From Lysobacter sp. cf310 (GTDB taxonomy: Bacteria; Pseudomonadota; Gammaproteobacteria; Xanthomonadales; Xanthomonadaceae): DNA of 64,000 nucleotides. Positions 37,727 through 40,818 of this stretch are shown here, piece by piece (positions within the stretch are counted from its first letter, which is position 1; each line of letters begins with the position of its first letter). The notes beneath the pieces were generated by a model. The model did no database searches, was not told the origin of the DNA, and saw only the letters and a list, made by a program, of their open reading frames with translations. Where the stretch lies: NCBI RefSeq assembly GCF_900114355.1, contig NZ_FOSS01000004.1:150238-214237 (forward strand). The letters are read 5' to 3'. Position numbers and translations under genes: made by a program.

Positions 37727-39616
<1,890 letters not shown>

Positions 39617-39691
39617 CGCAGGGTCCGGCGCCGCGGGGCGGCGGGCGGAATTTTAGGGCATGCCGGCGCGCGGCGCCCGGGCATGGAAACT

Positions 39692-39708
39692 TGGCACGGT
39701 TCCTGCGT
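39692..39708 (+). promoter_or_regulatory. Sigma-54 (RpoN) type -24/-12 promoter
   Basis: TTGGCACGGTTCCTGCG covers the -24/-12 promoter: TGGCAC with GG at 39693-39694 and GC at 39705-39706, separated by exactly 10 bases. It matches the consensus YTGGCACGNNNNTTGCW except at two positions in the -12 box. The predicted transcript start is near 39718. No coding sequence starts downstream within the next 120 bases before a terminator. Confidence 0.6.
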
Positions 39709-39717
39709 CATTACTCT

Positions 39718-39833
39718 TGCACCCAGCGGGGCAGGCGCTAGACGCCGGTCGGAATTGGAACAGGGGCTGGCCAAGCGCTCGCGGGGGAAGCAGGGGGCCG
39801 AATGTCGGGGGACATTCGGCCCCTTATTTTTTT
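39718..39833 (+). ncRNA. Candidate sigma-54-dependent small RNA
   Basis: About 116 bases from the predicted start to the end of the terminator's T-run. It contains a short GGCG/CGCC hairpin near 39733-39745 and a single-stranded purine-rich part with GGAATTGGA and GGGGGAAG. The 3' end is the 13-bp terminator stem. No frame in it has a start with ribosome binding site and recognisable protein. It resembles in layout the sigma-54-driven small RNAs of other gammaproteobacteria (such as GlmY), with no sequence match claimed. Confidence 0.5.
39794..39833 (+). terminator. Strong Rho-independent terminator
   Basis: A perfect 13-bp stem (39794-39806 with 39811-39823) and a GGGG loop are followed by TTATTTTTTT. 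This is the strongest intrinsic terminator in the window. It cannot end mnmG, which runs the other way, so it must end a rightward transcript starting in the preceding gap. Confidence 0.9.
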
Positions 39834-40236
39834 GCCGATTCTGATGCGCGCTACGCGCGATCCATCGATCTGAGGCCGGTCTGGCGCGTGTTACGCGCGG
39901 GACGCCGAGTCTTGCGCGTCGCCTCGTAGAGGGCGCCGACGCCCGACGGGGACGGAACAGGGGGGATCCGTGATTCCTCGCCGGGCGCCGACATAGTCAG
40001 GCTGTCTTACCGACTACGTCCAAATGCGACGCAACCGGTCAATACCCGTAGATTGCGGTCAGTCCGGCCCCGATGCAAGACCCTGGGATGTGACCGGAAA
40101 CTCGCTTGGCGAAACCCGCGCGCATGGAAGGCCGCGCTTGTGAACGGCCACGCGCCGGAACGACGCGCCTGGCGGCGAGAGGGTCGGTACGGGTCCGCGC
40201 GAGGCGGCGCTGCTGCCAGCGCCGCCCGCAGGCCGA
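39834..40236. other. Non-coding gap after the small-RNA terminator
   Basis: About 400 bases between the terminator and the stop of the leftward Tyr-rich lipoprotein gene. It has a GCGCGT...ACGCGC mini-palindrome (39884-39898) and short G-runs (39941-39966). Frames across it lack start signals or recognisable products. Nothing further can be supported. Confidence 0.4.
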
Positions 40237-40818
40237 TTACTGCTCGTGCGTGGCCGGCCGGCTGTCGCGGCTCTCGACCGCGCGGCGGAAGGTCTGCTGC
40301 ATCGGCGAACCGCTGTCGCGGCGCGGCGGCGGGTTGTTGTAGACCCGCGGCATCGGCTGCGAGGGCACGTGGGTCGGCGGCCGGCCGCCATCGGCGTGCT
40401 GGCGGCGGATGCCGTCCAGGTTGCGCCAGGGCGAGCGGTCGTTGTCCGGACGGCCCGGCGGCGGCGGATTGGTCGGCGGCTGGCCCGGATTGACCACCAC
40501 CGGCGGACGCGGGCGATGCGGGCGGTGATAGCCCGGATAGCCGTAGCCCGGATAACCGGGGTAGTAGCCCGGATAGCCGTAACCGTAGCCCGGGCGGTAG
40601 CCGTAGCTGTACGGATACGGATAACCGCCGTAGCGGTAGCCGAAGCGGTAGGCCTCGCCGTACGGGTAATAGCCGCCGTAGGAACCGTAGTAGCGGTATT
40701 CGGTGCTCGGCTGACCGTAGTAATAGTCGCCGCGCGCGCCGTCGCGATACACGTAATCGGGATAGCAGCCGGCCAGCAGGACGGCGGCTATGACGGGCAG
40801 GATCAGTTTACGAATCAT
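40237..40818 (-). CDS. Tyr/Gly/Pro-rich putative lipoprotein
   Basis: 193 residues. MIRKLILPVIAAVLLAGC is a lipoprotein signal with lipobox LAGC. The mature N-terminal half is a low-complexity Tyr/Gly/Pro repeat with units such as YGYPGYYPGYPGYGYPGY, giving over 30 Tyr in about 100 residues. The second half is Pro/Arg/Asn-rich (PPTNPPPPGRPDNDRSPWRNL) and ends THEQ. No enzyme motif is present. Similar short Tyr-rich lipoproteins occur in this family of bacteria without known function. The ATG at 40818 is fixed by the signal peptide. Confidence 0.75.
   Translation of the reverse strand: MIRKLILPVIAAVLLAGCYPDYVYRDGARGDYYYGQPSTEYRYYGSYGGYYPYGEAYRFGYRYGGYPYPYSYGYRPGYGYGYPGYYPGYPGYGYPGYHRPHRPRPPVVVNPGQPPTNPPPPGRPDNDRSPWRNLDGIRRQHADGGRPPTHVPSQPMPRVYNNPPPRRDSGSPMQQTFRRAVESRDSRPATHEQ

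Follow-up and report, generated by a model that had tools for sequence, protein, structure and literature searches.

Small RNA asX1 of Lysobacter sp. cf310 has a conserved sigma-54-type promoter and may act as a pilus-controlled decoy of a hairpin RNA from the opposite strand

The locus described here lies in a 64,000 nt stretch of the Lysobacter sp. cf310 genome (contig NZ_FOSS01000004.1), referred to below as the window, and comprises the small RNA gene asX1, its divergent neighbor mnmG, a convergent lipoprotein gene and several conserved elements between them. Numbered from the first nucleotide of the window, the features are:

37727..39616, (-) strand: mnmG (gidA), neighbor divergent from asX1, Pfam GIDA 552.6 bits
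39691..39706, (+) strand: -24/-12 (sigma-54-type, GG-N10-GC) promoter of asX1, TTGGCACGGTTCCTGC, conserved in the family
39720..39829, (+) strand: small RNA asX1, Rfam RF02235 at 93.9 bits over the full model (positions 1-115 of 115; gathering score 70)
39755..39766, (+) strand: asX1 apical loop UUGGAACAGGGG; both the window fold and a 31-sequence consensus leave its GAACAGG unpaired
39794..39833, (+) strand: asX1 intrinsic terminator, a 13-bp perfect stem, 4-nt loop and T-run
39932..39992, (-) strand: asX1-partner hairpin, conserved, with covarying stem, no Rfam match
39954..39969, (-) strand: loop of the partner hairpin, RNA sense GGAUCCCCCCUGUUCC, complementary to the asX1 loop GGAACAGGGG
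40027..40041, no strand assigned: PilR-type dyad CGACGCAACCGGTCA, with its GACG-N6-GTCA at 40028-40041, at a distance of 308 nt beyond the start of asX1
40237..40818, (-) strand: convergent Tyr/Gly-rich lipoprotein gene, 193 aa, lipobox LAGC, with the partner hairpin within its 3' UTR

A sequence-only reading of this DNA had proposed that a near-consensus sigma-54 promoter and the strongest terminator of the window, with a 13-bp perfect stem, enclose a short non-coding RNA that starts near 39718, and the re-analysis agrees with it on each of these points. The promoter is present as TTGGCACGGTTCCTGC on the (+) strand. The arms of the terminator (39794-39806 and 39811-39823) are 13 nt each, 100% complementary and separated by a loop of 4, and by a count of 15 pairs it ranks first among the terminator-like sites of positions 1-64000, the runner-up having 10. 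No plausible gene is found between promoter and terminator, and mnmG, recognized by its Pfam GIDA match, is oriented oppositely, both as had been stated. The RNA itself matches Rfam asX1 (RF02235) over the full length of the model, which begins at 39720, at most 2 nt from the proposed start; the start coordinate used here is that of the Rfam model, and the promoter predicts about 39718. The sequence-only reading named no described RNA at this locus, but one exists: asX1, a small RNA of the Xanthomonadaceae, was returned above its gathering score by a whole-window Rfam scan, full length under the covariance model, and the small RNA is thus a member of a described family. It is the sole Rfam match in 39600-39900 up to E=1, and no other family, GlmY/GlmZ included, was found there. 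The folded transcript is more stable than its shuffles (z = -4.65). A short small RNA of sigma-54 type is supported as the best explanation of the locus, and asX1 is predicted to be a stand-alone gene of about 110-118 nt with its own terminator. The RNA family is already known, and the novelty seems to lie in the control of asX1 and in the neighboring hairpin. Neither the dyad downstream nor the complementary hairpin figured in the sequence-only reading.

In a draw of 395 family genomes, asX1 matches were found in 352 at E<=0.001 (312 of them above the cut-off), spread over 46 of 54 genera. An order-wide draw of 250 genomes gave asX1 in 51 of 54 family genomes, and the Rfam model had no match in the genomes of other families in that draw. 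According to the available excerpts of PMC12189769, asX1 has been detected in Xylella whole-cell RNA and, together with others, linked to virulence; excerpts of PMC4652430 report its detection in X. campestris CFBP 5828R. RpoN is not mentioned in the available text of either source, and none of the literature matches listed deals with its control or with a pairing partner.

The apical loop carries GGA in most sequences, and UGAACAGG replaces GGAACAGG in those of groups g7 and g13. RNAs that titrate CsrA/RsmA have repeated GGA in their hairpin loops; titration of RsmA by asX1 was set aside, given that the loop GGA is not kept in two genera. RsmU was also considered, and is described in the available part of PMC7694677 as a 3' UTR-derived RNA from another gene. 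As a separate observation, the whole unit of promoter, asX1 and terminator has the reverse orientation at two loci, L014 and L064 (the latter from Lysobacter profundi), while keeping its place between mnmG (recognized from antisense frames) and the hairpin, and this arrangement makes asX1 look like a self-contained module.

The strict promoter form TTGGCAYGNNNYNTGC, formulated after relatives had been inspected, has one match in the window, where 0.06 would be expected. The textbook sigma-54 consensus with two mismatches has 13 matches in the window against 13.8 expected, which is not significant, and the motif alone was therefore not counted as evidence; the weight is on conservation. The sequence-only reading had suggested comparing this intergenic region among relatives, and TGGCA-N7-TGC is found directly 5' of asX1 in all 51 family loci (including that of G170), with 12-15 nt between the last base of the box and the Rfam model start (50 loci). 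A pattern scan of named records yielded 99 stretches, 80 of them with titles shown (Xanthomonas, Stenotrophomonas, Lysobacter, Pseudoxanthomonas and others), and with two copies at stretch edges omitted, the box is present in 97 of the 98 copies that have 130 nt upstream; the only copy without it, L135, has one base fewer. The same pattern occurs in 60 of 4950 random 130-nt pieces from the same loci. The box is also found at ten diverged copies within the family and at six copies in two other families, all of them chosen by pattern except three of the ten (L217, L220 and L227), which were chosen by eye. A gene for RpoN is present in Lysobacter sp. cf310 and in 390 of 395 family genomes, and sigma-54 RNA polymerase would make asX1 from this promoter in an RpoN-dependent manner.

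In L069, L080, L100 and others, a CRP/Clp-like palindrome, TGTGA-N6-TCACA, precedes the asX1 start by 66-67 nt. It is perfect in 25 of 98 copies; 30 copies have it with at most one mismatch, 29 of these at -66/-67, and the 23 copies with shown titles are all from Xanthomonas. The palindrome suggests a second input to asX1 in those loci.

Visual inspection of the 230 nt immediately before asX1 showed no conventional upstream enhancer. Downstream, the dyad GACG-N6-GTCA or its reverse complement is found within 620 nt of asX1 in 42 of 51 loci; in a scan of 50 of these loci 41 have it, at +252 to +381 from the start, and L280 is the further one. All other 100-nt bins between -800 and +1100 hold ten dyad matches in total, eight of them in the -300 bin, which at many loci still falls inside mnmG, and a reversed control motif gave one match. 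The exact dyad is missing from L005, L019, L024 (contig end), L032, L035, L036, L041, L049 and L050, and the match counted at L014 is not the one adjoining the hairpin, owing to the inversion of asX1 there. Among named-record copies, 76 of 87 have the dyad within 600 nt. It is uncommon for an enhancer to lie downstream of the gene on which it acts.

The same dyad form is found before pilin genes. In eight stretches around pilR, two of which had no pilin, twelve pilin promoters with a sigma-54 box were identified; six carry the dyad, one in each of six genomes, as TGACG-N5-(C)GTCA at 89-120 nt upstream of the -24 box, and six lack the exact dyad, including two of the three near the pilR of Lysobacter sp. 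cf310 itself. The dyad was defined from these pilin promoters after the block at asX1 had drawn attention, so the two observations are not independent. The genome of Lysobacter sp. cf310 has 11 matches to the strict promoter form, and only that of asX1 has an exact dyad within 600 nt; the genome's dyad-bearing pilin promoter lies outside those 11. In X. oryzae, RpoN2 and PilR control pilin genes, as given in the available part of PMC8657755, and the listed RpoN sites predicted in Xylella are all assigned to annotated genes in the available part of PMC3224663. PMC7970052 contains no mention of sRNA, small RNA, non-coding or intergenic. PilR, the response regulator of the pilin genes, is the most likely activator of asX1, and would act from the conserved dyad that lies some 250-380 nt beyond the asX1 start.

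The activators present in small genomes point the same way. PilR occurs in seven of seven small asX1-bearing genomes and NtrC in six, which leaves some room for NtrC, and in G285 (a draft, 99% complete, of 90 contigs) PilR is the only recognizable sigma-54 activator (>28 bits). G285 also has asX1, rpoN, the -24/-12 box TTGGCACGGATATTGC and the dyad (L209), and NtrC is not needed as the activator there. PilR was named by similarity and neighborhood, with no NCBIfam equivalog above cut-off, and the classification of activators covered 23 of 30 loci, locus L193 of Lysobacter sp. cf310 being among the seven left out.

It is unlikely that asX1, while sigma-54-dependent, is driven by NtrC or some other activator and that the dyad serves another promoter or is a relic. 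Such an explanation can draw on four loci of another family, f12 (L272, L273, L275 and L277), where, right of the hairpin, a small ORF follows a second -24/-12 box; in three of these the dyad (strict pattern) lies 57-59 nt upstream of the second box, and it may have served that promoter first. The pilin promoters without an exact dyad, half of those examined, are a further point in its favor, and they slightly lower the odds of the preferred reading given below. Besides the case of G285 and the resemblance of the dyad to that before pilin genes, this explanation has against it that across the 40 family loci with a forward dyad, and across their genera, no second TGG[CT]-N8-TGC box recurs at a fixed place within 700 nt; scattered matches do occur, and four of these, at +639 to +658, are from g3 loci closely related to one another.

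The partner hairpin would be transcribed from the strand opposite to asX1, within the 3' UTR of the convergent lipoprotein gene. The copy of the lipoprotein in the window has no Pfam match. A lipobox search found a convergent lipoprotein gene in 43 of 51 representatives, L085 being a doubtful case, and 41 of the 43 proteins have at least 8% Tyr. The core pattern of the hairpin was found in 143 of 149 asX1 loci; in four of the six without it (L024, L077, L092 and L154) the sequence extends no further than 194 nt rightward of the loop, and in L132 and L141 it extends 348 and 269 nt. In an alignment of 51 hairpins, read as minus-strand RNA, 95.4% of the cells are paired. Covariation is seen in 83 cells in which both partners differ, where shuffles give 26 (0 of 500 reach 83); for a second measure, covering further pair types, 14 of 500 shuffles reach the observed value, and slid controls of the alignment score far lower. 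Cells without a Watson-Crick pair on the minus strand comprise 143 G.U against 14 A.C, which identifies the minus strand as that of the hairpin. The loop has the form GGAU[C/U]CCCCCUGUUCC, varying in the length of the C-run. The aligned hairpins were gathered with a pattern containing the core, and the invariance of the core is thus partly by construction; copies found with a covariance model keep GAACAGG on the other strand in 19 of 19 and 8 of 8 cases checked. Rfam gave no match to 39840-40240 of the window up to E=5, and L003 had only matches far under cut-off, the best being BcKCsr7 with 26.5 bits against a required 59. Between partner hairpin and asX1, many loci show, by eye, a terminator-like hairpin that reads both ways; none was seen in the window.

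A further conserved stretch is present in many loci, as judged by eye, and corresponds in the window to about 40040-40100, to the right of the dyad and between the hairpin and the stop codon of the lipoprotein gene. It reads TAGCTTGC or TAGATTGC, with a GCAAGC partner.

The distribution of the hairpin reaches beyond that of the Rfam asX1 model. The hairpin covariance model, R1, was run on 38 chosen genomes and found the hairpin in 28, namely in all 17 with asX1 and in 11 of the 21 without an Rfam asX1 match; the remaining ten of the 21 had no R1 match. In ten of those 11 genomes a diverged asX1 with a -24/-12 box lies alongside (seven found by pattern), and the eleventh, G247 (L206), keeps the hairpin but has no asX1 between it and mnmG. 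Among 39 genomes of other families, R1 gave 11 matches. Eight of these other-family loci were inspected. A sigma-54-type box together with a short RNA-like stretch is present in six (four of f12 and two of f11). In L278 (f5) the loop resembles that of asX1, but the pattern found no promoter box, and in L279 (f2) the hairpin adjoins what looks by eye like rpmB, and no asX1 was seen.

The loops of the two RNAs are complementary. Uninterrupted complementarity of 9-16 nt (median 12) between asX1 loop and hairpin loop is found in 49 of 49 pairs, a count that omits L024 (contig end) and L280, which joined the set later. Opening the loop costs a median of 1.65 kcal/mol in asX1 and about 5.4 in the hairpin, against -8.9 for a 7-pair core. 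Eight of the ten diverged family members have Watson-Crick runs of 9-11, reached by 0-38 of 1000 shuffles; the other two, L217 and L227, have six Watson-Crick pairs (reached by 248 and 232 of 1000 shuffles), and nine and eight when G.U is allowed. In both f11 loci a different stretch allows 11 perfect pairs (0 of 1000 shuffles), and in the four f12 loci the 6-7 Watson-Crick pairs are at chance level, being reached by 82-276 of 1000 shuffles. From this complementarity, the asX1 loop UUGGAACAGGGG is predicted to pair with the C-rich hairpin loop GGAUCCCCCCUGUUCC.

The proposal that asX1 and hairpin do not pair, each having separate partners and the common letters reflecting separate constraints, is rather improbable. 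The core is nearly invariant in both RNAs, as separate constraints would have it, and the f12 loci, together with L217 and L227, where complementarity is kept only via G.U, also speak for this view; the length of the complementarity in all 49 pairs, the use of a different 11-pair stretch in f11 and the lasting adjacency of the two RNAs argue against it. Other complementary mRNAs were also considered as targets of asX1: CCCCTGTTCC occurs six times in the genome of Lysobacter sp. cf310 (three times for the reversed control), and two of the six sites are the asX1 antisense and the hairpin, the other four following no evident pattern.

Another small RNA of these bacteria, sX13 (RF02232), is linked to virulence in Xanthomonas, and has a copy in the genome of Lysobacter sp. 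cf310 (G000:C7:35234-35343). It is C-rich and was found in 27 of 27 genomes tested, 20 of them above cut-off, and that asX1 serves as its decoy was weighed as an alternative to pairing with the hairpin. A GGGGGA/UCCCCC contact of -5.2 kcal/mol exists in seven of 20 genomes, a count made without a shuffled control. Such contacts are short and shift in place between genomes, whereas the complementarity to the hairpin is longer and fixed, and a role of asX1 as sX13 decoy is very unlikely.

If asX1 and the hairpin pair, either could be the regulator. Where asX1 has diverged the hairpin loop stays the same, and the hairpin is present where asX1 was lost or not seen, which makes titration of the hairpin by asX1, at times when PilSR is active, the most likely direction. 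This argues for the hairpin as the older actor and asX1 as its regulated decoy, with the opposite direction nearly as likely. In that opposite relation asX1 would be the regulator and the mRNA of the convergent lipoprotein its target via the 3' UTR hairpin, a possible if somewhat doubtful arrangement: it is in keeping with the position of the hairpin in the 3' UTR of a mostly Tyr-rich lipoprotein gene, and with the low cost of opening the asX1 loop, but the hairpin persists without asX1 in G247 and has another gene context in f2, and so seems to do more than receive asX1. Taken as a whole, the reading in which asX1, made by sigma-54 RNA polymerase under PilR, pairs with the hairpin RNA and probably titrates it is considered fairly probable on the comparative sequence evidence. 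A wider proposal is offered more tentatively, at a little less than even chances: a conserved two-RNA switch of the type IV pilus, in which PilR, bound at an enhancer beyond the gene, would fire asX1, whose loop would capture a more widespread C-loop hairpin RNA derived from the 3' UTR of the lipoprotein mRNA. The hairpin would then be a new RNA family and asX1 a pilus-controlled decoy, occurring in most genera of the family and recognizable in at least two other families.

Parts of this arrangement are found in known systems. GlmY, under QseE/QseF, is likewise a stand-alone small RNA with a sigma-54 promoter, and its two-component enhancer-binding protein and decoy role, as given in the available excerpts, match what is proposed for asX1. 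Unlike GlmY, asX1 has a different candidate activator, a downstream dyad and a partner on the opposite strand, and it has no Rfam GlmY match. CrcZ and CrcY, controlled by CbrAB, are also sigma-54 small RNAs that have a two-component activator and counteract another regulator; in the available part of PMC8657755 that regulator is Hfq-Crc, whereas the G-rich loop of asX1 faces an RNA loop. The control of pilA by PilSR and sigma-54, described in the available parts of PMC8657755 for X. oryzae and PMC3224663 for Xylella, uses the same kind of -24/-12 promoter. The dyad is common to the asX1 and pilin promoters, but that of asX1 lies downstream of a non-coding RNA gene, unlike the case of pilA. Sigma-54 enhancers beyond the start of the controlled gene exist at Bacillus rocG and at the Caulobacter ftr sites; the candidate enhancer of asX1 differs from these in lying beyond a small RNA terminator and past a convergent 3' UTR.

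The anatomy of the locus thus offers a widespread small RNA (352 of 395 genomes) a candidate activator in PilSR, the pilus sensor system, and a candidate partner, and with them a candidate role in surface attachment. It would also provide a conserved downstream sigma-54 enhancer, if confirmed, together with a new family of RNA hairpins.

Two unusual records were encountered among the asX1 loci. In L104 (Stenotrophomonas panacihumi), two opposite-facing asX1 copies (18-39 and 560-581) lie about 540 nt apart, one of them at the stretch edge. L076, from a record titled Bacillus subtilis SK7B5, has a Stenotrophomonas-like asX1 locus, and its Bacillus label is probably the result of contamination or mislabelling.
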